Source of the DNA: a virus
Virus record (IMG/VR): IMGVR_UViG_3300037150_000013
Location: 1 to 41,218 of that record
Direction: 5' to 3' (one strand)
DNA: 41,218 nt
Part shown: positions 4,006 through 40,299 of the stretch, in pieces
Numbering within the stretch: the first letter of the stretch is position 1
Layout: every line of letters begins with the position of its first letter
Program-made: the position numbers and the translations under genes
Notes under the pieces: generated by a model
Database searches by the model: none
The model's input: only the letters and a program-made list of their open reading frames with translations
What the model was told of the DNA's origin: nothing

Positions 4006-5121
4006 ATGCCTAACAGTTCCATTCAACTTCAGGAAGTGGTAGATGACGCTTCCTCTCTCGGGGACGTTTCCCCGGCCCTTGCAACTGGCGGCTTTGGTAC
4101 TGCACCAGCTATTTCAATTGCCAACGATGTGATGCAAGCGATGATCAATGGTGGGCCGGGAGGCCAGCCTTTCAACTGGAAGTGGAACAGAACCAACGTG
4201 ACACCCTTTGTCACGATCAGCTACCAGCAAGATTACTTCATCCCCGGACTCATCAGTCTCGGCTGGTTGGAGCACGCATGGGCGTCCTACCTGAACCAAA
4301 CAGCCATCCCAAAACAGAAGCAGCAGCTTGAGGTACGTAAAGACCTTGACGTGACGTATGACCAGACCGGCTACCCCGGAAAGATTTGCTGGCTACCGAA
4401 CTCGATGCTTCAGACAGGTACGTGGGGGGCGTCACCTCTCGGCCCAACAATCAACAACCCATCTGGTCAGATCGGAGCTATCGGTCTAAACCCAAGTGGT
4501 TTGCAGAACCCCGGCCCGAACGTGATCTACACGTCACCTTTCAACACACCGAACAACCCCATCAACGCAACTACCTGCATTACTGACCCCAACGGGAATC
4601 TTTGGGTGCTCACAACGTTTGGTACGTGCGGTGCAACGCAACCTACGTGGCCTTCGACTCCGGTGTACCCAACCATACAGAGTCCATCTACCGTGGCTAC
4701 GACACAAGTGGACGGTACGTGTGTGTGGACAGCAATCAACCCATCCGGCCAAGGCTTCCGCCTGAACCCAATACCGCCTCAGACAGGCGTGACGTGGTTG
4801 ATCCAGCCAGTCGCCCAGAAGAAGGCACCGCGCTTCTTGAATATGCAGCAGACGCTTGAGCCGATTCCAGATGATTTTGAGTGGGCCTTCAAAATGGGGT
4901 TTTTTGCCGAATGTTATCGCAGAAACCCAGACCCCAAAGTGCGTGCCAAATTCCCTATGGAACGGCAGTTGTGGTTAGAAGCCCTCGATAAAGCCGTCCG
5001 TCAAAGCGATAGAGAGGAAGATGACTATGGTTTTTATCCAAGCAGTAGTATAATGGACAGTGGCATTGGAACCAATCCAATAAATCCCGCATACCCGTTC
5101 GGGGCTTTCAATGGCTTCTAA
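4006..5121 (+). CDS. Adaptor/neck-like virion protein with an inserted repeat module
   Basis: A 371-residue protein that is a diverged paralogue of the protein at 5581. Both carry W.WNR followed by a QQDY motif and GW near residues 58-88, and later a conserved PIPDD/PIPDE segment before a helical C-terminus (residues ~285-345). Between them, residues ~187-247 hold a module (DPNGNLW ... PTW ... VDGTCVW) also found in the 5581 and 8889 proteins. In podoviruses two tail-tube proteins sit beside a large nozzle protein, so a head-tail adaptor or tail-tube role is the best inference, not proven. Its 3' end overlaps the HNH gene at 5111 by 11 nt. Confidence 0.72.
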   Translation: MPNSSIQLQEVVDDASSLGDVSPALATGGFGTAPAISIANDVMQAMINGGPGGQPFNWKWNRTNVTPFVTISYQQDYFIPGLISLGWLEHAWASYLNQTAIPKQKQQLEVRKDLDVTYDQTGYPGKICWLPNSMLQTGTWGASPLGPTINNPSGQIGAIGLNPSGLQNPGPNVIYTSPFNTPNNPINATTCITDPNGNLWVLTTFGTCGATQPTWPSTPVYPTIQSPSTVATTQVDGTCVWTAINPSGQGFRLNPIPPQTGVTWLIQPVAQKKAPRFLNMQQTLEPIPDDFEWAFKMGFFAECYRRNPDPKVRAKFPMERQLWLEALDKAVRQSDREEDDYGFYPSSSIMDSGIGTNPINPAYPFGAFNGF

Positions 5122-5578
5122 AACTAGAGGCCCAAAGCCCAAGACTCATTGTATAAACGGACACGAGCTTGTCGAGGGAAACATTCGACAGCTTTACAAC
5201 AAGAACGGCGGAAAGGATGGGCGGCGTTGTCTAAAATGCAGCGCCACTCGCATATCTCGTTACCGTGATTTGTACCCAGACAAGGCTAACGAATCCCGTA
5301 CGAACTCCGCTATAAAAATGAAGTTCGGTCTCAACGGAATCGTTGGGCGCGAAGAATTATTGGCTGCGCAAGGTAATAAATGTGCATCGTGCTTCACCGC
5401 AGATTGCACGTGGGGAAAAGGTTTCAAGAATAAGTGGCACATCGACCACGACCATAAGACAGGCAAGGTCAGGGGCATACTTTGCTCACGTTGCAATCTT
5501 ATCCTCGGACAGGTGCAGGACGATGTTGAGTATATGTGGAAGCTGTGTGCCTACCTGAACACAGAACCTAAGGAGTAG
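5111..5578 (+). CDS. Endonuclease VII-like HNH homing endonuclease
   Basis: A 155-residue protein. An N-terminal zinc-knuckle-like module (C14..H18 ... C40xxC43) is followed by the Endonuclease VII fold: CASC at 91-94, the metal/catalytic segment IDHDHKTGK at 111-119 and LCSRCN at 124-129. Enzymes of this family cut DNA and, as free-standing genes, spread by homing. It starts inside the last codons of the upstream gene and ends 2 nt before the next start, separating two paralogous virion genes (4006 and 5581). It therefore looks like an insertion tolerated between genes. Probably dispensable for the phage. Confidence 0.92.
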   Translation: MASKTRGPKPKTHCINGHELVEGNIRQLYNKNGGKDGRRCLKCSATRISRYRDLYPDKANESRTNSAIKMKFGLNGIVGREELLAAQGNKCASCFTADCTWGKGFKNKWHIDHDHKTGKVRGILCSRCNLILGQVQDDVEYMWKLCAYLNTEPKE

Positions 5579-7575: not shown

Positions 7576-8877
7576 ATGAGCACACGCACCGCCTCAGCCA
7601 TTCCAACATCCTTGACTAATTCGGGCACAGGCATCGTGTGGGCAAACCCAGCCAACGCAGCACTCACTGGAATAGGAACAGCACTTGCAGTAGTCATGCA
7701 GTCGTTTTCTATTTCTTCCAACGTACTTTCGGTATCGACCAATCCAAACGCTTTCGTATCCGGGCAGACAGTCACCATATCTGGCATGTTCTTCGGGACA
7801 TATTTGAATGGTGTGACGGTCACTGTGTTGTCGTCCGGGTTGTCTTCTTCTGGGTTCTCAGCAAACTTTACGCACGCTGATGTGTCATCGACTTTTGACG
7901 TGGGCCTTGTAACTCCGACTACTGCGTATACCACCGCTACTAATTTCTCATACGTCACTCTATCAGCCGGGCAACATGCCCTTTATATGACGCCTAAAGA
8001 TGGCCCACTTGGACAGTCTTTTTCTGGAAGCGAGTTTGGCGATCTTCCAGCTTCATTAGCTGCTATGACACGCGGCACAGGCGGAGTAAATGGTCAGTCT
8101 TTGGCACCTACGTCAGCAGGCAGTGCTTCCTACCCTCTACCCATACCCACGCTCCCAGCAGGGTCCACGGTAATAGGTATCCAACCGTATGCTACGGGGG
8201 CAATCACGGCAACAGGCGGAGGTGCATTCCTCAACTTTCAGGTCACAGGTACGGGAGTTACGGGAAGCTTTACATTGAATGGCTCTCCTTCGATCCTGCC
8301 CAGTATCGGCACCAATCTAAGCGCCATACCCTCAATCGTATTCACGAATCAGGGTGAATCTACGCTGGATACGAGGACCGGCTACAGCTTCGCAAATGCT
8401 ATTTCGGACTACGGTGTAGTTGTGGTGTACACGACCACAGGTACTCCTATACCGCCGACGCAGCTTCAGACTCTCGTGGCCACGAGCTTCGGTTACAGCG
8501 TTGCCCCTAACGCGTACGTCACCGGAATCCAACTAAATCTTGGATCGGGTATTGTAACTGGATCGAGTACAGTATCGCTTACCGCGCAGTTGACGCTAGG
8601 CGGAACTCCAGTCGGAACGACAAAGACTTTGACGGCTTTGAGTGGATGGCAAACTCCTTACTCTCTAGGCAGCAGTGCCGATGTGTGGGGAACAACTCTG
8701 CGAGGCTCGAACATCAACGGGTCGTCAGGGTTAGGCGTGAACATCACAGGCACACTGCCGAGTGGTAACCAGATAAACCTGAATGGCATGTCGCTCGTAG
8801 TGACGTACTCAACACCGGCTACGGTCGCACATATCACTATCGGAAACACACGACCACCAACGGTCGGATTCAACTAG
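7576..8877 (+). CDS. Beta-rich tail protein
   Basis: A 433-residue Ser/Thr/Gly-rich protein. Residues ~35-120 look like a diverged copy of the beta module found in the 687 and 8889 products (NAFVSGQTVTISGMFFGTYL then NGVTVTV). Residues ~150-300 and ~300-430 are two further beta-sandwich-like stretches with similar strand pattern (TGIQLNLGSGIVTGSSTVSL; LNGMSLVVTYST). No catalytic motif, signal peptide or membrane segment. It lies between a fibre-like protein and the giant nozzle-like protein with only 9-11 nt spacing, so all belong to one transcript. A tail fibre or tailspike-like structural role is inferred. Confidence 0.7.
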   Translation: MSTRTASAIPTSLTNSGTGIVWANPANAALTGIGTALAVVMQSFSISSNVLSVSTNPNAFVSGQTVTISGMFFGTYLNGVTVTVLSSGLSSSGFSANFTHADVSSTFDVGLVTPTTAYTTATNFSYVTLSAGQHALYMTPKDGPLGQSFSGSEFGDLPASLAAMTRGTGGVNGQSLAPTSAGSASYPLPIPTLPAGSTVIGIQPYATGAITATGGGAFLNFQVTGTGVTGSFTLNGSPSILPSIGTNLSAIPSIVFTNQGESTLDTRTGYSFANAISDYGVVVVYTTTGTPIPPTQLQTLVATSFGYSVAPNAYVTGIQLNLGSGIVTGSSTVSLTAQLTLGGTPVGTTKTLTALSGWQTPYSLGSSADVWGTTLRGSNINGSSGLGVNITGTLPSGNQINLNGMSLVVTYSTPATVAHITIGNTRPPTVGFN

Positions 8878-8888
8878 GAGAACGCAAT

Positions 8889-11800
8889 ATGCCTAATAAT
8901 TTGGGCCTCAACGGAGCACAGGCGCAGAAGCCTACGCGCTTCGCCCCAATATATACTGGAAGATGGGCTTCCGGCATCTGGACGAACCGCAGCCCAATGC
9001 GAGACGCTAACACTACTCGGCAGGTAGAGAAATTCTACGGCCCAGCGGGAGACGCTCTTATTGCAGGGTTGAACACAGAGATTACGACACGCCTCACAGT
9101 GGGCCGTCGTCCCGGCAATCCAGCATACGACACAAACTCTTGGTCAGACCCGGATAGTTTTTACTCTTTCCGTTTGTTCAGTTCAAATTCTGAGCAGATT
9201 GACGTTATGGTAGATCAGGCTTCTGCGCTGTACTCTTTGTACGCAGGAGCTAAGAGTCTGGTGTTTACGAAGGCAGCAGGCGCAGGCCAAGCGTATATGC
9301 AGTCAGTCGGCAACACGCTATATTTTGGTGACGGTCAGGACAACAAGAAATGGCTTCAAACGCTGGAGATATGGGCAGCTAATGCTGTTTGGAATACGCC
9401 CAGCACGCCTCTCTTCACAACATTCATCATCGACACAAACGGAAACATCCAGCAGCTAACTGGAGGGACAACGTTCATATCGGACGCGACCCCTCCTGTA
9501 TGGAGCACGGTAGTACCGGCAGCCGGTAACGACTACCAAGGTGGACTCACAACCGATGGTGGCGTGGTCTGGACTAACCGTGGCAACCCTATTGAGAATT
9601 GGGGAATTGCCAACGACGGTGTGGCAGTTGTGCCGACAGTCGGAACGTCTCGTTCAGCTTGGGTAGCGAACACTTACTACTCCATCGCAGGCGCGATCAT
9701 AGACTCAAACGGGAACCTGCAAATGGTCACCGTTGCTGGCACCAGCAGCGCAGGGCCGGTGACGTGGGCTACCTCAGTGGGCAATTTGACCACGGATGGT
9801 GGAGTTACTTGGATCATGATTCAAACCGCAGCCTCTCTTGCGTGGGCAGCGAGTACCGCGTACGTTCCGCAGAGCACTTTAGTTTTGAGCGCAGTTGCGA
9901 ACAACAGCGGCGGTCATACAGTTTACACGGGAACTATCACAGGAGGAGCATCAAACTTCTACGCAGGTTCGACCTTCATCATCTCGGGGTTCAATAACGC
10001 AGTCAATAACGGAACGTTCCTGTGCAGCGCATCGACATCAACAACCTTGACGCTGGTGAACACCGCAGGCGTTTCGGAGACGTTGGCTGGGTCAGCATTC
10101 ACTCCGGGGCAATACCTAATCGGTAACGCATCCGGTACGAACTGCTTGTTCAATCTAGTTGTACCGTCGCAACCGTACATCACAGGCAACATCAGCGCGT
10201 ATATCTACAACAACGTCACTTCAGGGCCGGTTGGATGTTTCAACCTGACCAACCCAACGACTACAGGCAGCGCATTGGCAAGTGCAACAACACTTACCAG
10301 CTTGAGCATGACCGGGGCAGCGTTAGGTACGGGTGCTACGATGGTGTGGGCGACGATCAACGGAGCAGGCACAACTACTGGGACGACTAACCCTTTCCCT
10401 GCGTTTACTCACGACTATCAGTTGATCGTGCTTGGCAACTTGTTCTTCCCGAAGGCTGGACAGTATTCACTGACCTGCCAACACCATGATGGAATGATCT
10501 GGGGTATGGGAGGCGGGGCAACACTCATTAGCGGTACGAACGATAACCCGATTGGACAGACTCTAACAGCCAACCAAGGCTACACAGTCTTCGGTGGAAC
10601 TAACCGAGGTCTGGGCGGAGGCGGTCAATGGAACGACACCTTCACAGTCAACGTTCCGACAGCCGGTTCGTATCCAGTAGAGATTGACTTCGCATACTGG
10701 TACCATTCAGGTCTCGACTTGATTTGGAACGCTCAAGGATTCCCGATTGCCAACGGCAATGCGATCAGCGGTACAGTGCAACCGATCTGGCCTTCGTGGA
10801 CGACAGCTTTTGCGCCCGCGTACCCAAGCGTGCAAGAGTCGGCTGGTCGTTACACGTGGAATAACATTGGGCCTACTGCCGACTTCACGTGGCAGGCACT
10901 AAGAGGCTTCACACTGCCGGACACTACGATCATCGACACGAACGGTTACCAAGAAGGCCCGTATCGAACTGGCTACAGCGGTTCGGTTGCGCCGACGTTC
11001 TCGACATCGTTGAATGCTCTGACAGCGGACAATCCTAATCTGACGTGGATCAACCAAGGCATAGCAGCAGCACCGCCAGCCGGAACGGTAAGCACATTCA
11101 ACGGTGGGTGGAGCTACGCAGTAGCGTTGGTCAACACACTGGACGATACCGTATCGAATGCGTCTCCTTTGTCTACAGCTACCGGAAACTTCATCGGTGC
11201 TGCGGGAATCACCATCCCTCCCGGCGCAGGACTTCCTGCCCTAGCCGACATTGATCCGCAGGCCGACTTCGTTGCCATTTATCGAACCACTGACGGAGAA
11301 GCAACACCGTTCTTGATTCCCGGTGCGACGACGGAGTACACCGTGCCGCTGTCAACGTACCTCGTAAGCGGATATGTCGATAGTACACCGGACACCGGGC
11401 TGAACAATTTGATTCAAGCAGCACTGGAAGGGGAGAACACGCCGCCTGCATTGGGCGCGATCAATCTGACCTACCACTTGAACCGAATCTTCTACAGCAT
11501 TGGCAACATCGTGTACTGGACTTCTGGCCCAGATACGCCGGATGGAAATGGCATCAACGGTACGTCGCCTCTAAACTACGACAGCTTCCCGTCGCTAGTG
11601 AAACGCATCGTACCAACAGCAAGCGGTGCTCTGGTCTTTACGGTGAGCGATGTCTACCTGATCCAAGGGTCGGGGACAGCATCGAGTCCTATCCAGAGCG
11701 GCATTCCACTTATGAAGGGAGTGGGCCTGCTGAGCTACAATGCACTAGACGTGAACGGCTCGATCATCGGGTTCTTCACTACGGACAACCAGTTCTGCAT

Positions 11801-12535: not shown

Positions 12536-13024
12536 ATGAGAACCAAAAGAACGCACTGCAAGCGCGGACATGAGTATACTGAAGAAAATACTTGTGTCCG
12601 CGCAAGCGGTAAAAGGCAGTGCCGTATTTGTCGTTTAGAGTCTACCCGAAACTGGGTTGAAAATAATCGAGAAAGATGGAACGAATTGCACAGGGAATGG
12701 ATAGCTAAAAACCCAGAAAAAGCAAAAGCTATAAACTCAAGGGTATATAAGAAGTCTGGTAATCTTTGGCACAAAGAAAGAGACTTGAGGAAGTTGTATG
12801 GTATAACGTTAGAGCAGTTCGACAGTATGTTGGCAGACCAAGCCAATGCTTGCGCCGTGTGCGGCGAGGATTTGGTTGTGCCTTGCGTAGATCACTGTCA
12901 TTCGACAGGCAAGGTTAGAAAGATTTTGTGCCCCGCTTGCAATAAAGGTTTGGGCATGTTTAGAGACAATCCAGAGACGCTGGCTAAAGCTGCGCAGTAT
13001 GTGAGGGAATATGCCGCTCAATGA
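12536..13024 (+). CDS. Endonuclease VII-like HNH homing endonuclease
   Basis: A 162-residue protein with the same layout as the 5111 product: N-terminal C-x3-H ... C-x2-C module (C8, H12, C29, C32), a Lys/Glu/Arg-rich helical middle, then YGITLEQFDSML, CAVCGED, VDHCHSTGKVRK and LCPACNKGLG, the Endonuclease VII metal-binding and catalytic segments. The gene is visibly more AT-rich than its neighbours, a sign of recent transfer. It sits between the giant tail protein and a fibre-like protein, overlapping the next start by 14 nt. A free-standing homing gene is the natural reading. Confidence 0.92.
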   Translation: MRTKRTHCKRGHEYTEENTCVRASGKRQCRICRLESTRNWVENNRERWNELHREWIAKNPEKAKAINSRVYKKSGNLWHKERDLRKLYGITLEQFDSMLADQANACAVCGEDLVVPCVDHCHSTGKVRKILCPACNKGLGMFRDNPETLAKAAQYVREYAAQ

Positions 13025-21257: not shown

Positions 21258-23369
21258 ATGTCTAACCCGAATTCCCAAGTACCTCCGCCACCTCCGGGCT
21301 TTGCTCCTGTAGCGGATCAAAGCTCGGCAGCCCCATCTACGCCACCCCCGCCACCTCCGGGGTTTGCGCCAGTGGCCAACCAATCGAGCCAGCCTCCTTC
21401 GGGACAGACACCTCCCCCTCAGGGAGGACAGGATGAAGGGTTCCTCAGCCGCGCTTATGAGACGAGTGGGGCAAAGGGATTGGTGGATTTAGGCAAGGCT
21501 GCGTTGTACCAGCGACCGATAGACTTGTATCACGAGATGGTGTCTAGTGCTCAGAAGGGTGATTACAAAACTGCCGCAGAAAGCGCGAACAAGTTGTTGA
21601 CGATGCCTATCACAGCGGGACTAAACGACAAGGATAGTCCCCTTCGTAAGGCAGCTACAGCAATTATCATGCAGCCTATCGACACCATCAAGAACGAGTA
21701 CAAGGAGCAGCGTGCTCAGGGTAAGACCCCGATGCAAGCGGTGCTCGATCCCGGCGACGAAGCACGTAAGGTTGTGTCTGACCTAAAAGGTGGGCATCCG
21801 TTGGATGCTCTTAGTTCGGCAGTCCATGCAGGGACTAGGGCAGTTGCAGCAGTTCCTTTGGTTGGCGGGGCGGCTGAGCAGGTCGGCAGTAACCTAGACA
21901 CCGATATTCATAACGGTAACTACAGCGCAGCTTTAGGTGACATTACTGGGCCTCTAACTACGATGGGTATTGGCAAGGTTCTAGGGGCACTAGGAGACGC
22001 TGGTGAGGCAGCAGGAGGGGTAGAGGCCGGTGAAGCCGGTGCAGCCGCTCCTGAGACTGCTGGTGTACCTCCGCCTCCGAGCGGTGAAGCTCCTGCGTCT
22101 GCTCCAATAACTCCCACGTCGTCTGTCACTCCGGGTACCGCAGGAGTTCGTCCTGCGACCGCGAGTGTGGCTGGTGAGAGTATACCAGTCGGGGCCACTA
22201 GCCCTGCATTGGCCGGTAAACCAAACCTATTAGCACGCGGAGTAGCCAGCTTTGCTACTAAGGAAGGTGCAGCTAAGTTCGTAGCAGAGCAAACACAACC
22301 TGCCGTGGTCAACGCACTTGGAAAGAATTTTGCAGACAGTGGACTAAACTATCTGAACGATCTGAAATCTTTGCGAGGTGATGAACCTATCACGATCCAA
22401 CCGGGGGACATCAAGAGCACAGATGATTTGGTTTCACTGATGCGCAAGGAGGCTAAACCTACTTACTCCAAACTGGATGAAGCAGCCGGTGAAGATCAAG
22501 CCGATTGGGATGCGCAATACGGCCCTGACTCGCCACACGCCAAGGCAGTAGAAGCAGCCGAGGAAGCTCAAAAAGCTCTCGGGCCGAATGCTAAGGTTAC
22601 GAGTAAGATTCCAGAGCCGCCCGAACGTCCCCAGTCGTTCACAGAGATGCAAGATGATCTGAATGACTATAACCGCATCTTGAAGAGCAAGGATGCAAGT
22701 ATAACCGACAAAGCCACAGCGAAGCAGATGGTTCCTAAGTTGCGCAATCAGATGTCTGCGTTCCTGAATAACCATGCTGATGTTGTGGAGCCGGGAGAAC
22801 TAGAAGCCGCTAATAAGACGTATGCTTTGGCAACACGGTATGATTACATTGCCGATAGACTGCGCTCAGCGGTAAAGGGAATTGAGGGTGGCAATCTCAC
22901 CACGAGTGCCACTAAATCAATTTCTCCAACAACGCTTGAGAATCTTCCAGATCAGTTTGACAATCATTTTCAACCGGGCGACTTCAAGAAGTTGCTTGGC
23001 AACGAGGGCATGAAGAACTACAACGACATTTCCCGTCTTCTAGCAGAACCGAAGACAGGTAGTGCATTCTTGAAGTTCTTGAACTCTCTGTCGTTCACTG
23101 ACAAGGCCAGTCCGCTAGGCACACCACTGAGCGCAGCCGCAGATAACGTACTCTTCAATCCAGCAGCCGGGCAAAAGGCAATGGCATTGTGGAAGGGCGT
23201 ATCCAATACGATTGCTAAACCGGCTAGTGCAGTCGCAGGAGCAGCTAAGGCAGCAGGTATGGTGCTCAACAAGACACCGACCGCAGCTAAGGTTGCAACG
23301 TATGGAGCACTCGCAGGCGCACTCGGCGGCCCGCAGGCAGAACAGCAAGCTCAACCAAACCCTCAGTAG
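21258..23369 (+). CDS. Proline-rich-headed internal virion protein, probable frameshift donor
   Basis: A 703-residue protein. Residues 5-60 contain two copies of a Pro-rich motif (PPPPGFAPVA) joined by Ser/Gln/Pro linkers. Residues ~60-215 are helical. A second Pro/Ala-rich disordered stretch follows (~255-300). The rest is helical with charged segments. AAAGGAGAAG precedes ATG 21258. The frame ends at TAG 23367, four nt past a slippery heptamer and inside the spacer/stem of a hairpin, so a fraction of ribosomes may slip to -1 and continue to 23977, giving about 906 residues. Likely an internal/ejection virion protein by position and composition. Confidence 0.66.
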   Translation: MSNPNSQVPPPPPGFAPVADQSSAAPSTPPPPPPGFAPVANQSSQPPSGQTPPPQGGQDEGFLSRAYETSGAKGLVDLGKAALYQRPIDLYHEMVSSAQKGDYKTAAESANKLLTMPITAGLNDKDSPLRKAATAIIMQPIDTIKNEYKEQRAQGKTPMQAVLDPGDEARKVVSDLKGGHPLDALSSAVHAGTRAVAAVPLVGGAAEQVGSNLDTDIHNGNYSAALGDITGPLTTMGIGKVLGALGDAGEAAGGVEAGEAGAAAPETAGVPPPPSGEAPASAPITPTSSVTPGTAGVRPATASVAGESIPVGATSPALAGKPNLLARGVASFATKEGAAKFVAEQTQPAVVNALGKNFADSGLNYLNDLKSLRGDEPITIQPGDIKSTDDLVSLMRKEAKPTYSKLDEAAGEDQADWDAQYGPDSPHAKAVEAAEEAQKALGPNAKVTSKIPEPPERPQSFTEMQDDLNDYNRILKSKDASITDKATAKQMVPKLRNQMSAFLNNHADVVEPGELEAANKTYALATRYDYIADRLRSAVKGIEGGNLTTSATKSISPTTLENLPDQFDNHFQPGDFKKLLGNEGMKNYNDISRLLAEPKTGSAFLKFLNSLSFTDKASPLGTPLSAAADNVLFNPAAGQKAMALWKGVSNTIAKPASAVAGAAKAAGMVLNKTPTAAKVATYGALAGALGGPQAEQQAQPNPQ

Positions 23370-23403
23370 GGTCAACGGCTACAAAGTCCAAAGTCGCTGA
23401 CCC
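23357..23403 (+). promoter_or_regulatory. Candidate programmed -1 ribosomal frameshift signal
   Basis: The heptamer A-AAC-CCT (23357-23363) has the X-XXY-YYZ form in the frame of the 21258 gene. After a 5-nt spacer, GGGTCA (23369-23374) pairs with TGACCC (23398-23403), and CGGCT (23376-23380) with AGTCG (23392-23396), interrupted by a single A/C mismatch, with an 11-nt loop. The zero-frame stop TAG is at 23367-23369. Slipping to -1 reads AAA CCC TCA GTA and enters the frame of the ORF that ends at 23977. The CCC second triplet is less common than AAA or TTT, so efficiency is uncertain. Confidence 0.6.
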
Positions 23404-23413
23404 GAACGATACC

Positions 23414-23977
23414 TTGAAACAGGTATTGTCTGAGAACAGCGGGATGGCAAAGAACTTCGACTTGAAGAATACCTCAGTTGTCTTTGCCAACCCGGAGCGT
23501 TCTAAGTACGGACTGAAGAACAACGGAAGCCTAGAGTATTGGTCAGCCGGTGAAAAAGGCGATGACAAATTTCCTTCACCCGACCCCAATAAGAATGTTT
23601 TGGAAGTTTACGATGACAAGCTAAAGAATAATCCAGAGGCGCTGAAGCAAGCTATCTATGGGGACTTGATGCACGGCATGGCGAACGACAAACATTGGAA
23701 CCAATTGCGAACTGAGTTCATGAGCAACTTCACACCTGAAGAAAGAAAACGGCAGCAAAACCGGTCAACATGGTGGGATGATGTGAATGGCCCCAAAGAG
23801 AAGTTTGGCAGCCCAACGTATGATGCGTATATCCGAGGTGTGATAGCTAACGATGGTGATTGGAAAGCTGGGCAGAAAGATTCCGGCAATACGATGTACT
23901 CTCCGAAGCAATTGCAGATATTGCAAAAGATGAAGGACTATATCAAGACCGGCAAGGAGGATCAGGGCCAGCAGTAG
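23414..23977 (+). CDS. ORF probably expressed as the C-terminal extension of the 21258 product
   Basis: A frame of up to 187 residues if counted from TTG 23414. That codon and the first ATG (23444) both lack a ribosome-binding site, and the sequence reads as protein already from the slip site at 23363 (SVGSTATKSKVADPNDT). It is soluble and charged, with a Trp-containing middle segment (FTPEERKRQQNRSTWWDDVN) and a helical C-terminus (SPKQLQILQKMKDYIKTG). No family recognised. It closes the virion operon, with the terminator hairpin overlapping its stop. If not made by frameshift, it might be a decayed or independently initiated gene. Confidence 0.6.
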   Translation: MKQVLSENSGMAKNFDLKNTSVVFANPERSKYGLKNNGSLEYWSAGEKGDDKFPSPDPNKNVLEVYDDKLKNNPEALKQAIYGDLMHGMANDKHWNQLRTEFMSNFTPEERKRQQNRSTWWDDVNGPKEKFGSPTYDAYIRGVIANDGDWKAGQKDSGNTMYSPKQLQILQKMKDYIKTGKEDQGQQ

Positions 23978-24023: not shown

Positions 24024-24593
24024 ATGTACATTTACAAACTTACGAACCAGATCAACGGTAAGATATACGTTGGCAAAACTACCCACAAGAATTTGAACTC
24101 CTACTTGAGCAACAAGCGTTGCTTGGCTAGGCAGGGAAAGCATTCACATCCTATCGTATCTGCGATGGCTAAGTATGGGGTTGACAGTTTCTCAACCGAG
24201 GTTCTTGCTACTGCAAGCTCTAGTGAATGGTTAGACTATTTGGAAGTATTGTGGATCATGTTATTGGATTCACGGAACCCAGAGGTAGGTTATAATATCC
24301 ATGCAGGAGGCGGCAAAGGAGCTTTAGGACAAGTAATGTCAGCGGAGCAAAAGGCTAAGATCGGAGCGGCTAATAAGGGAAGAAAACCTAAAGGTTATGT
24401 CCGAACTGAGCTTCATAGGCAGCAAAGGCGCGATGCGATGAAGGGTAATAAACTTGGGACTAAGTTTACATCAGAAAGTGCTAGACAAGCTATCCTAAAT
24501 GAGACGCCCACAAATAAAGCTAAACGTATTGCTGGTATACAAGCTGCATGGGATCGAAAAAGAGGAATAAAAGGAGTGTTTTCAAATACTTAG
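24024..24593 (+). CDS. GIY-YIG homing endonuclease
   Basis: A 189-residue protein. Residues 1-18 (MYIYKLTNQINGKIYVGK) are the GIY-YIG nuclease core with the YVGKT form of the second motif. A helical stretch (LEVLWIMLLDS) and GYNIHAGG complete the domain by about residue 95. Residues ~105-190 carry NUMOD3-like DNA-binding motifs (SAEQKAKIGAANKG and SESARQAI). The gene is AT-rich against its surroundings, consistent with recent transfer. It follows the virion-operon terminator and runs into the 5' end of the cell-wall hydrolase gene, whose ribosome site lies within its last codons. No intron splice signals were recognised. Confidence 0.92.
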   Translation: MYIYKLTNQINGKIYVGKTTHKNLNSYLSNKRCLARQGKHSHPIVSAMAKYGVDSFSTEVLATASSSEWLDYLEVLWIMLLDSRNPEVGYNIHAGGGKGALGQVMSAEQKAKIGAANKGRKPKGYVRTELHRQQRRDAMKGNKLGTKFTSESARQAILNETPTNKAKRIAGIQAAWDRKRGIKGVFSNT

Positions 24594-24621: not shown

Positions 24622-24996
24622 GTGTTGGAAGCATGGCGTCAGATGTACGAGCAGGGTGGCCATCTTGCTTGCGTTCTAGTGATGGGAGTCCTTGCTTGCC
24701 GCGTACGAAAGGGATGGGGAAACTGGTTAGAAGTCTTAGCTTCACTTCCTAAACATAGCGCACTGAAAGACCAACCAAACCGCGACAAGTTTCCGCCGAT
24801 ATGGGAGCCACAGTTTGTACGCTTACTTCACGAAATCGAGCCAGTATTTGATGGCACGTCCGATCCGGCCAAAGGCGCACTGTATTGGTGCGATACGCGC
24901 TACGTTGAGACAGACTTTTTCAAAGACAAGATTCTAAGTAACAAAGACGACCATCCTCGGGTGGTTGAGATGAATAGCCTAGCGTTATTCAGATAG
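24622..24996 (+). CDS. Cell-wall hydrolase (SleB/Hydrolase_2-like), probable endolysin
   Basis: 124 residues from the first canonical start, GTG 24622. The pattern IVLEAWR...GGHLACVL, then RVRKGWGNW and, near the end, GALYWCD and HPRVVEM resembles the SleB-type cell-wall hydrolase family, in which the early glutamate is catalytic and a GALY/W(Y) segment lies near the C-terminus. The frame is open and coding-like further upstream (LRQDDFLKGQ). A strong AAGGAG at 24571-24576 lies 9 nt before an in-frame ATA at 24586, which may be the actual start. It heads the lysis cassette with two membrane proteins. No signal peptide is seen, so release probably depends on a holin. Confidence 0.65.
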   Translation: MLEAWRQMYEQGGHLACVLVMGVLACRVRKGWGNWLEVLASLPKHSALKDQPNRDKFPPIWEPQFVRLLHEIEPVFDGTSDPAKGALYWCDTRYVETDFFKDKILSNKDDHPRVVEMNSLALFR

Positions 24997-25765: not shown

Positions 25766-27064
25766 ATGAGTACACCCTACAAAGATGTAGACAGCAACGC
25801 GATCCTTGCCGACATTCAGAAAGTAGCCCGTGAGCATGGGCCGGTAACACGCGTTCAGTACCGCAAGTACGGTACGTTTAGTGAGCGAAGTATCATTGAG
25901 AAGTTCGGCGGGTTCTTCAACGCTGTGCAGGCAGCCGGTTCCGGCAAGTCGGCGCAGAGCACACCTACGCTCGTTGAGACCAACGAGGTATCTGGGAACA
26001 AGTGGGAGATTACTCTTCCCAAGACACGCATCCACACGCTTCCTCAGCTTCTTGAACACGCTAAGGTGGACACTTCCATTTGGAAGGTAGATCGCTTTGT
26101 CGTCAACTGCTGGGAGATGGGCTTCAAGGATAGCAACGATAAACCTGCTACACAGCCATTGTATCAAGTCAAGGCGACACTGATCCGCGACGTAGTTATG
26201 ATCGACGTTCGACAGGAGATTGAAGCCCTGAAGGATGAGGTCAAGAAGGTCGCACGTGTACCGAAGTCAGTGATTCACTCTGCTAAATCCAGCGGTAACT
26301 TGCTGGAGTTGATGATCCCAGATTTGCACGCAGGCAAGCTCTGCTGGGCCAAGGAGACAGGTTACCAAAACTACGACACTCCGATAGCAATTGCGACTTA
26401 TCGCAATGCCGTGGACAGTCTGTTAGTTGCGACCAAAGGTTACACCTTCGACAAGATTATTCTAGGCGTGGGTAATGATCTTCTGCAATCGGACAACATC
26501 CAAGGCACTACGTACAGCGGTACGAAGGTGGATACTGACGTACGGTTCCGCAAGACGTATCGCATGGTTCGGGAGATGCTTTCAGAGACGGTCGAGAAGT
26601 TGAGGTTGTTGGCACCTGTGGAAGTGAAGCTAGTGCCCGGCAACCATGACACCCTTTCTACCTTCACGCTTGGGGATTCCCTTGAGTGTAGGTTCCACAA
26701 CTACTCTGACGTGCTCGTAGATAACGGGCCGTCGATGCACAAGACAGTCGAGTGGGGAGAAACATTTTTAGTTCTCACACATGGTCATGAAGGTAAACAA
26801 GCTGATTACGCGGCATGGATCGCGTCAAAGTATCCACGCGAGTTCGGAAGAACAAAGTTCCGTGAGGTTCACGTTGGTCATAAACACAAGTCAGCACTGG
26901 ATGAGAAATTTGGTGTACGGGTACGTACACTAAGCTCTTTGACTCCACCTGACGCGTGGCACTCGGATAACAACTTTGTTGGAAACTTGCGCGTAGCTGA
27001 GGGCTTGGTGTTCAACAAAGAGCGAGGACTTGTGGCACAGTTTTACCATACAGAGACCGATTGA
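25766..27064 (+). CDS. Calcineurin-like metallophosphoesterase with N-terminal HNH-repeat DNA-binding domain
   Basis: A 432-residue protein. Residues ~10-58 (ILADIQKVAREHGPVTRVQY, then EKFGGFFNAVQAAG) match the homing-endonuclease-associated HNH repeat, a small DNA-binding helical unit. Residues ~180-385 hold all the phosphoesterase metal motifs in order: PDLHAG (D186, H188), GVGNDLL (N237, D238), PGNHDT (292-296), LTHGHE (H339, H341) and VGHKHK (H372, H374). The middle (~105-140, WKVDRFVVNCWEMGF) is a conserved-looking linker. It should hydrolyse a phosphodiester with two metal ions, but the substrate (DNA end, cyclic nucleotide or other) is unknown. First gene of the early-type cluster, behind a strong promoter. 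Confidence 0.85.
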   Translation: MSTPYKDVDSNAILADIQKVAREHGPVTRVQYRKYGTFSERSIIEKFGGFFNAVQAAGSGKSAQSTPTLVETNEVSGNKWEITLPKTRIHTLPQLLEHAKVDTSIWKVDRFVVNCWEMGFKDSNDKPATQPLYQVKATLIRDVVMIDVRQEIEALKDEVKKVARVPKSVIHSAKSSGNLLELMIPDLHAGKLCWAKETGYQNYDTPIAIATYRNAVDSLLVATKGYTFDKIILGVGNDLLQSDNIQGTTYSGTKVDTDVRFRKTYRMVREMLSETVEKLRLLAPVEVKLVPGNHDTLSTFTLGDSLECRFHNYSDVLVDNGPSMHKTVEWGETFLVLTHGHEGKQADYAAWIASKYPREFGRTKFREVHVGHKHKSALDEKFGVRVRTLSSLTPPDAWHSDNNFVGNLRVAEGLVFNKERGLVAQFYHTETD

Positions 27065-29844: not shown

Positions 29845-31488
29845 TTGAACACCGAGATGAGTGCCTTCGCAAGGCGCATCATGGAACAGAAGTATTCGCA
29901 CACGAAGATCGACGGGTCTAAGGAAACTTGGGCCGAGATAGCACACCGCGTAGCCAAGAATGTACTGGGCGCGGTCAACGCAACGAAAGCAGAGATTGCC
30001 GAGACCACCGCCCTTATCACCCAACGCAAATTCATCCCCGGAGGTCGATACCTGTACGCATCAGGACGATCCTTCCATCAAGTTCAAAACTGCCTGCTCA
30101 TGCGGGCAGAAGACAGCCGTGAGGGTTGGGCCGAACACCTTCACAAATGCGCCATGAGTCTTATGACCGGCGCAGGTATCGGAATCGAGTACAGTCGCGT
30201 GCGTGAGCGAGGAGCAATCATCCGTCGCACAGGCGGTACAGCCACCGGGCCATTAGCCCTTATGGAAATGACGAACTGTGCAGGACGTGGCATACAGCAG
30301 GGCGGAGCACGACGATCCGCGATCTGGGCAGGTTTGAAGTGGTGGCATCCAGACATAGACGAGTTCATTCGTATGAAGGATTGGTCATATGAGGTCAAAG
30401 CTCTCAAGGAGAAGGACTATAACTTCCCGGCCCCTATGGACGGTACGAACATCAGCGTTGGCCTTGATACCGAGTTCTTCAAGGCTTACCACAACAAGAA
30501 GCACCCGAAGCACGACAAGGCCCAGAAGGTTTACTGGGACACTGTACGCCACATGCTTGAGACTGGTGAACCGGGATTCAGTATTGACTGTGACGAGAAC
30601 GACGGCGAAGACCTACGCAACGCCTGTACTGAGGTGACCAGCCGGGATGACTCGGATGTGTGCAACCTTGGCTCGATCAACATGGCGGAGATTTACACGC
30701 TCGAAGAGATGGAGTTGGCAGTGCGCGTAGGAGTGCGGTTCTTGCTGGCTGGCACGCTCTACAGCGACCTGCCGTACGAAAAGGTAGGCGAGATACGCAC
30801 CAAGAACCGGCGACTCGGCCTTGGGGTTATGGGGATTCATGAATGGCTTCTCAAGCGAGGATACCGATACGGTTCAAACCCAGAGCTTCAATCTTACATG
30901 GAACTCTACGCACGCAGCACAGATGTTGCAGCAGTTATTGCGGACTCGTACGGAATATCCCGTCCTGTCAAGACACGAGCTATCGCTCCGACCGGGACGA
31001 TTGGAATTGTAGCGGAGACGACGACCGGCCTTGAGCCAATCTTCTGCGTTGCATATAAGCGTAGAAATCTCATCGGTGACCGGGTTGCATACGAATACGT
31101 AATTGATCCATCAGCCAAACGGCTCATTGACTCGGGTGTCGATCCTGACCTCATCGAGGATTCGTACGATCTGGCCAAGGAACCTGAACGGCGCATCGCG
31201 TTTCAAGCGTGGCTGCAAGGCTACGTCGATCACGCGATCAGCAGCACACTCAACCTTCCTCAATGGGGAAGCGAGTACAACAACGCGGATACGGTCAAGC
31301 CTTTCGGTGACATGCTAGTTAGATATTTGCCACACCTTAGGGGAATGACTTGCTACCCTGACGGATCACGAGGAGGTCAACCCTTGTCACCTGTCAAGCT
31401 GGCCACGGCTCTCAAGCACAAGGATCAGGTCTTCTATGAGCAGGCCGACATCTGTTCGATTACTAAAGGTGAATCATGCGGAGCATAA
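29845..31488 (+). CDS. nrdJ: Ribonucleotide reductase, probably class II (adenosylcobalamin-dependent)
   Basis: A 547-residue protein starting at TTG 29845, 8 nt after GGAG; the next ATG (29857) is too far from that site. Hallmarks are NCLLM (first redox cysteine, C83), FSIDCDEN, NACTE (N259, C261 and E263, the radical-site Asn-Cys-Glu), CNLGSINM (second redox cysteine, C273), APTGTIGIVAETTTGLEPIF (~381-400) and a C-terminal pair (C537, C545). It makes deoxynucleotides for phage DNA. There is no radical-generating small subunit (NrdB) or glycyl-radical activase next to it, and the NxCxE-to-Cys distance (12) resembles the monomeric class II enzymes, hence the class call. It is the last + strand gene before a terminator. 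Confidence 0.88.
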   Translation: MNTEMSAFARRIMEQKYSHTKIDGSKETWAEIAHRVAKNVLGAVNATKAEIAETTALITQRKFIPGGRYLYASGRSFHQVQNCLLMRAEDSREGWAEHLHKCAMSLMTGAGIGIEYSRVRERGAIIRRTGGTATGPLALMEMTNCAGRGIQQGGARRSAIWAGLKWWHPDIDEFIRMKDWSYEVKALKEKDYNFPAPMDGTNISVGLDTEFFKAYHNKKHPKHDKAQKVYWDTVRHMLETGEPGFSIDCDENDGEDLRNACTEVTSRDDSDVCNLGSINMAEIYTLEEMELAVRVGVRFLLAGTLYSDLPYEKVGEIRTKNRRLGLGVMGIHEWLLKRGYRYGSNPELQSYMELYARSTDVAAVIADSYGISRPVKTRAIAPTGTIGIVAETTTGLEPIFCVAYKRRNLIGDRVAYEYVIDPSAKRLIDSGVDPDLIEDSYDLAKEPERRIAFQAWLQGYVDHAISSTLNLPQWGSEYNNADTVKPFGDMLVRYLPHLRGMTCYPDGSRGGQPLSPVKLATALKHKDQVFYEQADICSITKGESCGA

Positions 31489-36301: not shown

Positions 36302-36749
36302 GTTGCCTCTTTTCTCCGATGGATTGTCGGATGGTTAGAAAGTATTTTGAAACCGGCGATATGCCATTTCTACGAAAGAGCTTGCCTAAGGTCTGCTCAA
36401 GGACTTGTCTTTCTTTGGGCGTGTACAAGGTCTCGGAATCCTCGGTAATGTACGTCGCCTCGAATCGAGCTATCTCCTTCTTGTCCCCATCGAACGCTAG
36501 GCTGATCATGTGATCAACGTCGCAAAAGAAATCAGTGTGACTCGGCTGTGCCGTGTTCCGTGTGGCGTGCCCCGAGTCGAAGTCGTTGTTGGCTACCAAG
36601 ATCGAACTGCGCTTCTTCATGCGGTCGAGGTTACCTTGCACGGGTTCGGGAACTGCGAACGGGTCTCCGATTACATCATCGAACGCGTTCTTGTTGAACT
36701 TGAACTCCTCGTTATACTTTCCAATGTTGTTGGCACTACGGTTTCCCAT
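36270..36749 (-). CDS. Unknown protein
   Basis: A 159-residue protein. The first ~60 residues are polar (NNIGKYNEEFKFNKNAFDDV, PEPVQGNLDRMKKRSSILVA). Then comes a segment with Cys and His (TDFFCDVDHMISLAFDGDKK) and a helical region (ERQVLEQTLGKLFRRNG), with a basic C-terminus (GEKRQHGKPRKQF). No domain recognised. It overlaps the Endonuclease VII-like gene upstream by 14 nt. Confidence 0.62.
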   Translation of the reverse strand: MGNRSANNIGKYNEEFKFNKNAFDDVIGDPFAVPEPVQGNLDRMKKRSSILVANNDFDSGHATRNTAQPSHTDFFCDVDHMISLAFDGDKKEIARFEATYITEDSETLYTPKERQVLEQTLGKLFRRNGISPVSKYFLTIRQSIGEKRQHGKPRKQFTL

Positions 36750-37173
36750 CTCTCTCCTGTTTGATCTTGTCCAGCAACTTCCTGCGCTTCTTCGTACCCA
36801 CCTTCCCCGGCGCAGTGAGTATCACTCTACCAAGGAACTTCGTGAATGTCGATTCAGCAAAATACTTACCGGCAGCTATGAACAACTCCGCAGCTTCCGG
36901 GTGGAACCTCTGGAAAGCTCCGATGGCCCGGTTGCATTTCCAGCACAGCAGACCTCTTAGTAATCCGGTCTTGTGATGATGGTCTACAGCGAACGCCGTC
37001 TTCGATTCCGCGAGGGGCATCTGGCATATCGCACAACGCGAATCCTGCCCCCTGAGGACGCGATTGTATTCCGGTAGGGTAATACCATACTCCCGGCGTA
37101 AACGTGCGTCCTTGGCCCTATTCCGGGCCGTCAATGGCCTACTCACAGCTACTCCAGTTCTCCCCCGAAACAT
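36736..37173 (-). CDS. Endonuclease VII-like HNH homing endonuclease
   Basis: A 145-residue protein. REYGITLPEYNRVLRGQ leads into CAICQMP, then FAVDHHHKTGLLRG and LCWKCNRAIGAF, the Endonuclease VII motifs (two CxxC, DHHH, TG, CN). Unlike two relatives in this window it lacks the N-terminal C-x3-H/C-x2-C module. The C-terminus is long and basic (GKVGTKKRRKLLDKIKQER). It overlaps the kinase-like gene by 25 nt and the next gene by 14 nt. Probably a homing gene wedged into the replication operon. Confidence 0.9.
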   Translation of the reverse strand: MFRGRTGVAVSRPLTARNRAKDARLRREYGITLPEYNRVLRGQDSRCAICQMPLAESKTAFAVDHHHKTGLLRGLLCWKCNRAIGAFQRFHPEAAELFIAAGKYFAESTFTKFLGRVILTAPGKVGTKKRRKLLDKIKQERDGKP

Positions 37174-37700: not shown

Positions 37701-39760
37701 AGCTTCACGACTTCCTCTTCATCCGTATACGGTACGGCAGCCGCAGTCGGTGTGGCCGGTACCTCTACCGGGGCCGCCTCTGTCTTCGGTTTCACCACGG
37801 CCTTCAGCTTGTTCAACTGTTGCTCGTAGCCAATGTTCTTCTGAGCGATGGCCTTCATCTTAGCGATCTGGCCTTCGTTGTTCTCGCTTATTGTACTCGT
37901 TGCGCCGTTATAATGCAAGGTCGTTCTGCCACCTCCACTATACCTACTCAACCCCACGGTCACGACCATTTCGTCTCCGAACGATGTTTCCTCGTACACG
38001 TATCCCATATCCTTCACGTCTTGGGCAGTGAGTTCCCCGCCAGTACGCTCACGATGCAGAACCATCATGCAGTCGCAGTCCTTGCCGATCTGAGATGCGC
38101 CGTCAACGTTGTCGCTCGTAGCCAGTGCGCCCGCCTTGATGCGGTGGGGTTGCAGGATACGAATGATCTGAACGTTGTAGTCCTTAGCGATCTGGGAGAT
38201 GACTTTGCTTATCTCCGAGAGGTGCTGCGTGCGGCCTTTGTCTCCCAACGTCGTATCACACAACCGTTGGATGTTGTCAATACAAATCCACTTCGCACCG
38301 TACCGGCGAATGCAGTCACGCATCAGTCCGTAGATGTCGTCAACCGTTTTGTACTTCGGGTAGCAGAAGTAGAAGTCGCCCTCTCGATTTGCGGACGCGT
38401 TCTGTACAAGAGGAACAGCAGTGAGGAATGCGTGCTTGAGTGCTTCGGCCTCCACTGGGTTGCGCGGGATGTTGTCCGCGATCTGAGCCTTGTACGCGAT
38501 CCACTTGCGGGCCATGCGTGCTCGGGTCATCTCCAGACAGATGAACACCCCGTCTTCCCCGTACGCGTCCACGATATCTTCCATGATGTTCATGGCGAAC
38601 GTTGTCTTGCCCACCTTCTCCGGTGCGAGGATGTCGATGACATCTCCCTCATCGAAACCGACCAGCGTGTTCAACGTCGGCCAGCGCGTCTTGTACTTCG
38701 GCTCTACACCGTTGGTGGTCAACTCCTCGTAGAACTCCTGCACAGCATCCTTCGAGGACGCGACACCGGCTACGTCGAAGAGCACAGCCTCCTGCTTCAG
38801 CTTCTCGAACTCCTCAGCAGTACCGCCGCCCTGAGTGAACCATTCGTTTAGGTCTTTGCCGGGGCGAATCTGGCCGTCTTCAGTGGTGACCTGAAAGTCC
38901 GGCAGAGTAATCTTCCAGCACTTCTCGATGCCGATTCGGTTCGCAAGTTCCTGAGCAGCCTTCTGACCCGTCTTGTCCTTGTCATAGCAAATGTAAACCC
39001 TTTCCAGTTTATCGAGCGAGTCGATCCACTCCGCCTTCTTGAAGTTTGCGCCGGGAATGCCGCAGAAGCCGGTGAGTCCCTTATCCATTGCAGCAATCGT
39101 ATTGGGTTCCCCCTCAACGAACGTCACGTCGGTCATGTTAGGGAAGTTCAGAATCTCCCCATTGTACAGCGGCGCGTCCCAGCCCTTCGGTGAACTGAAA
39201 GCCTTGACGACTTTGTTTTCGCTCAGAGGCATGGTCGGCAGCGTGCGGAAATGGGCGAAGACCTGCTGACCGTTTACCAAATACGGGTACACCAGAGCTT
39301 TTACTTCTCCGCACTCTCTGAAGAACCGTTTGTCCAGCAGCCCGATCTTCTGCTGCTTGATAATTGCCATACTAAAGCCGCGCCCGTTGATAAGGTAATC
39401 CATCGCAGATTCGTCGGCAAGTAAACGTTCATGGCACGCTTCCAAGTCAGGCAGTGGCTCAGTCTCTTTCGTCCCTCCTGCGTCCTTACGTGATTCTAGA
39501 TTGGGTACTATAAAACCTAACTTTTGCTTTAGCGAGTACAGGTTTCCACCTTCTCCGCACTTCACGCAAATGTACAAACCGTCCCGGTTTTTCAGTTCCT
39601 CGTCTTGGCGGTGCAACTCCATCATGCAGTGGTAGTTGTCTTTTTTGCACGATGGGCATATCTCCAACTCAATCTTAGGCTCAGAGACGTAACGCCACTT
39701 CCAACCTTGGCTGATTACGAATTGTAAAGCCGGGCTATCCTTCGCTTCGACTTGGCTCAT
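37697..39760 (-). CDS. Bifunctional primase-helicase (T7 gp4/Twinkle-like)
   Basis: A 687-residue protein. A Cys4 zinc finger (C35xxC38, C65xxC68) is followed by a TOPRIM primase domain with VTFVEGEPN (E216) and YICYDKDKTG (D260, D262), then a DnaB-like RecA-fold helicase from ~365: APEKVGKTT (Walker A, 379-387), WICIDNIQRL (Walker B, 491-500), and the motif H4/R-finger region (QIIRILQPHRIK, ASQIGKDCDCMM). It would unwind the fork and lay primers in one chain. The last ~90 residues are Ala/Glu/Pro-rich and acidic, as in T7 gp4, where they recruit polymerase. DNA polymerase is not in the window. Confidence 0.92.
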   Translation of the reverse strand: MSQVEAKDSPALQFVISQGWKWRYVSEPKIELEICPSCKKDNYHCMMELHRQDEELKNRDGLYICVKCGEGGNLYSLKQKLGFIVPNLESRKDAGGTKETEPLPDLEACHERLLADESAMDYLINGRGFSMAIIKQQKIGLLDKRFFRECGEVKALVYPYLVNGQQVFAHFRTLPTMPLSENKVVKAFSSPKGWDAPLYNGEILNFPNMTDVTFVEGEPNTIAAMDKGLTGFCGIPGANFKKAEWIDSLDKLERVYICYDKDKTGQKAAQELANRIGIEKCWKITLPDFQVTTEDGQIRPGKDLNEWFTQGGGTAEEFEKLKQEAVLFDVAGVASSKDAVQEFYEELTTNGVEPKYKTRWPTLNTLVGFDEGDVIDILAPEKVGKTTFAMNIMEDIVDAYGEDGVFICLEMTRARMARKWIAYKAQIADNIPRNPVEAEALKHAFLTAVPLVQNASANREGDFYFCYPKYKTVDDIYGLMRDCIRRYGAKWICIDNIQRLCDTTLGDKGRTQHLSEISKVISQIAKDYNVQIIRILQPHRIKAGALATSDNVDGASQIGKDCDCMMVLHRERTGGELTAQDVKDMGYVYEETSFGDEMVVTVGLSRYSGGGRTTLHYNGATSTISENNEGQIAKMKAIAQKNIGYEQQLNKLKAVVKPKTEAAPVEVPATPTAAAVPYTDEEEVVKL

Positions 39761-40272
39761 ACTCTCCTTAGGTACTGAATAGCTCTTTGCAAACTCTCCA
39801 CACTATCTGCGAGAAATCCAAGAGCTTTGTTGCATTTGTGGCACAGCAGACCACGTACGCATTTACCACACGTCATTGATCCTGAGCAACAAGCATGGTC
39901 ATGATCCACATGGGGCTTGTTATCTTCACTAAATTCTAAAGTACACACCGGGCACGCATTTCCTTGGCTCTCAAGCATCGAGTCGTATTGTCCGGGGTCA
40001 AGATTGTAGCGAGAGTTGCGGTAGCTTTCTTTGTTCCTCTTGGAATCAGATTCTCTCCACTCTTGCACCGTTTCCTTTATCTCACTTGCATGGCGGGTGT
40101 AGTAAGACTTCTGTGAAGCTATGCGACAATCGACACACCACAGACACAGACCGTCCTTTTTCTGCTTATCCTTGTTGAATTCCCCTGTGTCCTTTTCTTT
40201 TTTGCATTTGGTGCAAGTTCGCAGTCTTCCAGTGAAGATTCCTTTACGTTTTCGTCGTTTCATTGTTTCCAT
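39757..40272 (-). CDS. Endonuclease VII-like HNH homing endonuclease
   Basis: 171 residues from ATG 40272; ATG 40263 and TTG 40299 are alternatives. CTKCKKEKDTGEF and CLWCVDCR form an N-terminal Cys4 zinc knuckle. Then come YNLDPGQYDSMLESQGNAC, CPVC, VDHDHACCSGSMTCGKCVRG and LCHKCNKALGFL, the Endonuclease VII motifs with an insert (CCSGSMTCGKC) in the usual TGK turn. It is AT-rich against its neighbours. The gene overlaps the primase-helicase start by 4 nt. A good promoter overlies its 5' end. Likely a recent homing invader. Confidence 0.9.
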   Translation of the reverse strand: METMKRRKRKGIFTGRLRTCTKCKKEKDTGEFNKDKQKKDGLCLWCVDCRIASQKSYYTRHASEIKETVQEWRESDSKRNKESYRNSRYNLDPGQYDSMLESQGNACPVCTLEFSEDNKPHVDHDHACCSGSMTCGKCVRGLLCHKCNKALGFLADSVESLQRAIQYLRRV

Positions 40273-40299
40273 TCTACTACAAAACAAACCACTTGTCAA
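40271..40299 (-). promoter_or_regulatory. Sigma70-type promoter on the minus strand
   Basis: Read on -, TTGACA (40299-40294), 17 nt, then TAGAAT (40276-40271). It overlies the start region of the 39757 homing gene. Transcription would begin near 40264, at or just before ATG 40263, so that start would be leaderless from this promoter. It would drive the primase-helicase and the genes below it. Confidence 0.7.

Follow-up and report, generated by a model that had tools for sequence, protein, structure and literature searches.

Frameshift-made protein pairs are well known in phages, both in the tail chaperones and in some coat proteins. A canonical -1 signal combines an X_XXY_YYZ heptamer with an RNA structure 5-9 nt further on; in bacteria it is often, though not necessarily, preceded by an SD-like stimulator. 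In the lambda-type chaperones G and GT, the longer product arises from a -1 slip (Xu, Hendrix and Duda 2004, as cited in PMC5009743), and C-terminal extensions derived by frameshifting have been described for 10B of T3/T7, for Lactobacillus phage A2, and for the Listeria phages A118, A500 and PSA (PMC5009743). The tau/gamma pair of E. coli dnaX uses an SD-like element, a slippery heptamer and a downstream stem, and the arrangement is reversed in the dnaX genes of a few bacteria (PMC5009743). In annotated phage frameshift heptamers, the Y position is not restricted to A or U (PRFect; PMC10885494). The word frameshift is absent from a review of podoviral ejection proteins (PMC8954989).

Here we analyse a frame junction in 41,218 nucleotides of viral DNA (IMG/VR record IMGVR_UViG_3300037150_000013), referred to below as the window. 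A preliminary description of this DNA, made from its letters, had proposed that a programmed -1 frameshift fuses two ORFs, ORF1 and ORF2, into the longer version of an ejection-type virion protein.

Results

Putative slip site and stem at the end of ORF1

The zero frame of ORF1 ends with ..CCA AAC CCT CAG TAG, the heptamer being in phase and the stop following one codon later, and the -1 frame is open up to 23977 (Table 1). The stem downstream (23369-23403, GGGTCAaCGGCT / AGTCGcTGACCC) consists of 11 pairs, including one G-U, plus one A/C mismatch. All these elements of the preliminary description, i.e. the zero-frame heptamer, the stop, the 5-nt spacer and the 11-bp stem, were re-derived. The stem has an MFE of -16.2 kcal/mol, compared with -7.6 for shuffles (z -3.76), and an equally good fold was obtained in 1 of 200 shuffled sequences. 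The coding-like sequence that had been claimed to begin at the slip was also recovered: a codon-usage score trained on the clear ORFs of the window takes positive values in frame 0 as far as about 23359, and from about 23360 onwards it does so in frame -1.

Three in-phase X_XXY_YYZ heptamers are present in ORF1, AAACCCT only once, and when up to 2 mismatches were allowed in AAACCCTCNGTAGGG, for which 0.25 matches are expected in the window, the sole match was the exact one. With CCC as its YYY, the heptamer is not among the classical A/U-type sites and is not a classical efficient heptamer. No convincing SD-like stimulator was found upstream of the window slip site (anti-SD -3.6, equalled in 43% of upstream windows). 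The two versions foreseen, of about 703 and about 906 residues, agree with the computed 703 aa for the zero-frame product and 702 + 204 = 906 residues for the predicted long form. The junction peptide has to be corrected: it had been given as QPKPSVGS, and with tandem slippage it should read ..QPNPSVGS.., because AAC and CCU would be decoded before the slip.

Table 1. Features of the frame junction at the end of ORF1 (positions in the window).
Feature	Position	Strand	Remarks
ORF1, zero-frame product, 703 aa, ending ..QPNPQ-stop	21258..23369	+	Homologue of Tunturi_3 gp25; probable virion-associated protein
Slippery heptamer A_AAC_CCT, X_XXY_YYZ phase	23357..23363	+	Kept in L041 and L044; same gene position in L003 and L008
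15-nt core AAACCCTC[A/G]GTAGGG	23357..23371	+	Common to -1 junctions of unrelated phage genes
5-nt spacer CAGTA	23364..23368	+	Equal length in L041, L044, family B, L003, L008 and L042
Zero-frame stop TAG	23367..23369	+	
Putative stimulatory stem, 5' arm (GGGTCAACGGCT)	23369..23380	+	
Putative stimulatory stem, 3' arm (AGTCGCTGACCC)	23392..23403	+	
-1 frame extension, 204 codons + stop, giving the predicted 906-aa form	23363..23977	+	Linker, then folded domain from ~23399

A downstream domain without a usable start

Relatives of the -1-frame domain (ORF2) were found in IMG/VR by profile searches, which matched viral contigs and gave none in genome contigs; P0002 as a single query matched nothing in either set. 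ORF2 has no family match in Pfam, PHROGs or NCBIfam, and PDB gave no function. The AlphaFold2 model based on 21 sequences (pLDDT 83.7) is a folded domain, in which residues 1-11 form a disordered linker and the first helix, residues 17-27, has a high pLDDT. The model has no significant PDB match, the only match being an uncharacterised viral protein (A0A6J5QT87, E 1.4e-6). Weak matches to a metallopeptidase-like fold were not relied on, and a match to Caulobacter phage Cr30 was dropped as chance owing to its poor alignment.

ORF2 might be a separate gene, translated from a weak TTG 23414 or ATG 23444 or by re-initiation after the TAG, the heptamer being incidental. Free-standing homologues with their own SD and ATG do exist: near the major capsid gene in L010-L014, after another gene in L043, L045 and L046, and after an M15 peptidase in the group of phage ctz7E20; moreover, ATG 23444 would retain most of the domain. 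The anti-SD energies at the starts of such free-standing relatives range from -4.7 to -11.8, and that of ORF1 is -8.7, whereas upstream of TTG 23414 and ATG 23444 they are +0.1 and -2.7, so the earlier statement that both lack a ribosome site holds. Neither start is kept in relatives (in L044, no start codon occurs before GTG 6118, which lies inside the domain), the first helix of the model begins upstream of both, homology and coding signal extend upstream to the slip, and the conserved 15-mer and stem would be left unexplained. We therefore consider a separate gene decidedly improbable; the downstream domain is without a usable start. Separate, well-initiated homologues had been named as an observation that would speak against frameshifting. 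They were found for the downstream domain, but since they possess the SD and ATG that the window lacks, they represent an alternative arrangement and do not contradict a frameshift.

Two further relatives deserve a separate mention. In L015 (3996-4008), a distant ORF2 relative stands in the -1 register to a 540-aa ORF ending GCG GGG GGG CTT TAG. The seven G before the stop were considered as a third slip site; there is no strong stem and a homopolymer invites error, and we keep it as a possible poly-G slip only. L042 (109-165) carries an ORF2 relative with a homologue of window 24622-24996 downstream, and has C_CCA_AAA CAG TAG, a 5-nt spacer as in the window, and a near-perfect 20-bp hairpin (z -11). 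Its domain goes on in frame 0 past the TAG; the stop may be read through, or the assembly may be off by one base at what is a -1 site.

The same junction behind a different gene

L041 and L044 were found by protein similarity, using patterns far downstream of the slip, and not by the motif. Their ORF2-type domains are 60-63% identical to that of the window and follow upstream ORFs of 502 and 492 aa, respectively, that differ from ORF1: for the L041 upstream protein, with which the comparison was run, no similarity could be detected either to ORF1 or to the 821-aa neighbour, and the fetched stretches of both contigs have nothing in common with the window besides the domain and the junction. The junction itself is that of the window, CCAAACCCTC[A/G]GTAGGG in the -1 register. 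In all three, frame 0 ends with PNPQ or PNPR directly before the stop, and frame -1 reads KPSVGS into the domain.

Between the window and L041, the motif codons are identical in 5 of 5 cases, compared with 10 of 41 (24%) for conserved K/P/S/V/G codons elsewhere. Stem pairs 4-6, which are U-A, C-G and A-U in the window, are A-U, G-C and C-G in L041 and L044, both sides having changed, and the codon in this part of the stem is TCA in the window and AGC in the two contigs, encoding Ser both times. Hence the conservation of heptamer and stem that the preliminary description had proposed to look for in relatives is present here, together with the 5-nt spacer and compensatory changes; as L041 and L044 are 76% identical in the domain, this amounts to little more than one independent comparison.

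A mirror arrangement in Tunturi_3

The relatives of ORF1 are gp25 of Tunturi_3 (1070 aa; 30% over 83% by tblastn, E 5e-70), a 1019-aa protein of L008, and that of L002, which is the closest. Tunturi_3 (L003) is an isolated podovirus of Tunturiibacter (PMC11924767). Both in Tunturi_3 and in L008 the gene is continuous, with an in-frame C-terminal extension that is a domain different from that of the window; Tunturi_3 thus provides the single fused gene that had been anticipated among relatives. At the border of the shared part and the extension, both carry an in-phase A_AAC_CCT, a 5-nt spacer and the stem GGGGAAG..CTTCCCC (chance 0.004 each), and in L008 this is the only in-phase X_XXY_YYZ heptamer of the gene. 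Here it is frame 0 that stays open, and frame -1 meets a stop immediately (AAA CCC TAA). From the arrangement of frames, the predicted slippage product is the long form in the window and the short form in Tunturi_3.

L002, which has no extension, ends with AAC CAG TAG and has no heptamer. A CAGTAGGGCC hairpin (7813-7845) remains at the end of its ORF1 despite the absent extension, and this ORF1 looks broken by one base at 5586. A second in-phase AAACCCT lies at 8490 of L003, within the gp25 extension and away from any frame junction.

The continuous genes raise the question of whether the window once had such a gene as well, broken by a frameshift mutation or by a one-base error of sequencing or assembly, much as ORF1 of L002 looks broken by one base elsewhere. 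Such a break would have to be identical, down to the nucleotides, in independent contigs with different upstream genes, and it would account neither for the extra constraint on the motif codons nor for the covarying stems; besides, the extensions of Tunturi_3 and L008 are a different domain. We assign a broken gene a negligible probability. In particular, the recurrence of this site in independent contigs makes a one-base sequencing error, mentioned in the preliminary description as fatal to its proposal, very unlikely.

The 15-mer in other phage genes

A search for AAACCCTCNGTAGGG over all viral contigs gave 59 distinct sites. A -1 junction, defined as a long ORF upstream in frame 0, the TAG in the motif and a long ORF downstream in frame -1, was present at 18 of the 31 sites with A or G at N and at none of the 28 with C or T (Fisher p 3.4e-7). 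These 18 sites fall into five unrelated gene families (A-E), four of them besides that of the window, which forms family A with L041 and L044. Family B (L065, L068, L077, L088, L093 and L106) has a 154-aa extension and 9-10-bp stems with z of about -3 to -4.5. The extension of family C (L080) is an SLT transglycosylase domain (PF01464, 2.8e-27) that starts a few residues after the slip, and family D is represented by L102. In family E (L079, L105, L112 and others), proteins of 130-175 aa acquire extensions of about 88 aa; in L105 and L112 they lie upstream of PhageMin_Tail tape-measure genes, i.e. they are tail-chaperone-like G/GT pairs. Two of the four families found by the motif are proteins of no known kind.

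SD-like tetramers occur upstream of 13 of 16 motif sites against a background of 24%, the window being among the exceptions. No strong stem was found in families C and D, and at several sites of family E the fold is no better than in shuffled sequences. Families B-E were picked by the motif itself, so its conservation there is not independent evidence. When family B was searched by protein alone, only its six known contigs came back, and no homologue without the motif turned up. Nothing in the phage collection matched families B, D or E; therefore, no annotated isolate with the 15-mer was found.

The presence of the same 15-mer and ORF2 behind unrelated genes in otherwise unrelated contigs would also be expected if the 15-mer were a DNA recombination or insertion site for the exchange of C-terminal domains and fell at frame junctions only as a by-product. 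CCCT..AGGG is partly palindromic, and in the window the next gene downstream encodes a GIY-YIG endonuclease. A DNA site, however, would need neither a fixed -1 register, a zero-frame stop and SD-like sequences upstream, nor a compensatory stem at a fixed distance of 5 nt, and it would have no cause to occur in tail chaperones, whose known mechanism is -1 shifting. The probability of this explanation is very slight. Recombination is nonetheless compatible with frameshifting and may help to spread a frameshift cassette.

ORF1 and its neighbourhood

For ORF1, searches of Pfam, PHROGs, NCBIfam and PDB gave no match; ejection proteins of the T7, P22 or N4 type were thus not among the homologues recovered. 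ORF1 and its neighbours are homologous to those of the podovirus Tunturi_3. Judging by the podoviral homologue and the gene position, ORF1 is more likely than not a virion-associated ejection-type protein. Neither ORF1 nor ORF2 is homologous to known tail chaperone families (Pfam, PHROGs, NCBIfam), and directly downstream a tape-measure gene is absent, its place being taken by the GIY-YIG endonuclease gene and homologues of the Tunturi_3 endolysin region.

The GIY-YIG gene (24024-24593) directly follows the -1 ORF, and L002 has neither at that place. Other observations concern the wider window. Four ORFs (5111-5578, 12536-13024, 36736-37173 and 39757-40299) match one L002 stretch (10358-10729) and form a repeated, probably mobile gene family. 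The HNH-repeat and metallophosphatase-like protein encoded at 25766-27064 is 98.6% identical to that of L002, compared with ~50-92% for adjoining genes, which suggests a recent exchange. The B12-type ribonucleotide reductase at 29845-31488 has only 547 aa, with Pfam matches in three stretches, and is possibly rearranged or split.

Discussion

The proposed -1 frameshift fusing the two ORFs is supported by the conservation of the site, the compensatory stem changes, the fused relative, and the recurrence of the motif at unrelated junctions. We are confident that the site at 23357-23403 is a programmed -1 ribosomal frameshift signal, and we infer from it real slippage, occurring in tandem at AAC-CCU with an efficiency that would leave the long form in the minority. 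Accordingly worded as a model, the majority of ribosomes would stop ORF1 at the TAG and release the 703-residue protein. A minority, stalled at the stem 5 nt downstream while AAC and CCU occupy the P and A sites, respectively, would slip jointly onto AAA CCC, read the -1 frame and add 204 residues, giving 906 in total with the junction ..QPNP/SVGS... As in phage tail chaperones and dnaX, one probable virion-associated protein would then exist in two lengths, short and long, at a fixed ratio. In the unrelated genes that carry the 15-mer, too, the signal appears to govern the amounts of a long and a short protein. As for what the long form does here, we would guess that ORF1 belongs to the podoviral ejection- or internal-type proteins and that only some copies carry the C-terminal domain.

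A broader reading, which we advance tentatively and rate as slightly less likely than not, is that a transferable -1 cassette (AAACCCTC[A/G]GTAGGG, a 5-nt spacer, a stem and, as a rule, an SD-like element) moves between unrelated phages and has repeatedly been put between virion-morphogenesis genes and a C-terminal domain, making a sub-stoichiometric, domain-tagged internal or tail protein, with the direction of the site flipped in one podovirus lineage. Within this cassette reading, the flip suggests that the ratio of long to short form is what selection keeps.

In the open-licence literature, we found no report of a frameshifted podoviral internal-type protein, nor of one extended motif common to unrelated phage genes. 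If our reading is true, gene callers miss the C-terminal domains of many phage proteins, and the 15-mer (AAACCCTCRGTAGGG) is a simple search key for such missed domains. The flip between the window and Tunturi_3 would then be a natural experiment on the importance of the long-to-short ratio, and the prediction is directly testable because Tunturi_3 and its host are in culture.

Compared with the described systems, ORF1 resembles the ejection proteins T7 gp14-16 and P22 gp7/16/20 (PMC8954989) in size and in its position in a podovirus-type gene order, although no sequence homology between them and ORF1 was found. With the coat and tail extensions, the locus shares a predicted minor long virion protein with an extra C-terminal domain and a type of shift that varies between relatives; there, however, Ig-like or other extensions are attached to major capsid or tail proteins, whereas here a probable internal-type protein would receive an uncharacterised domain. 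As in G/GT, a -1 slip near the 3' end of a virion-morphogenesis gene would yield a minor, C-terminally extended product, and the family E pairs before PhageMin_Tail genes use the very 15-mer of the window. The window differs from G/GT in that ORF1 has 703 aa, belongs to a podovirus-type lineage, has no tape-measure gene next to it and no chaperone homology, and in that its extension is a 200-aa domain. Relative to dnaX, the gene is another one, the heptamer is A_AAC_CCT and not A_AAA_AAG, and the extension domain varies among the relatives of the window. Nevertheless, the short form of Tunturi_3 and L008 would, as in dnaX, be the product of the shift, a stop being met immediately in the -1 frame, and the reversed dnaX genes parallel the relation between the window and Tunturi_3.
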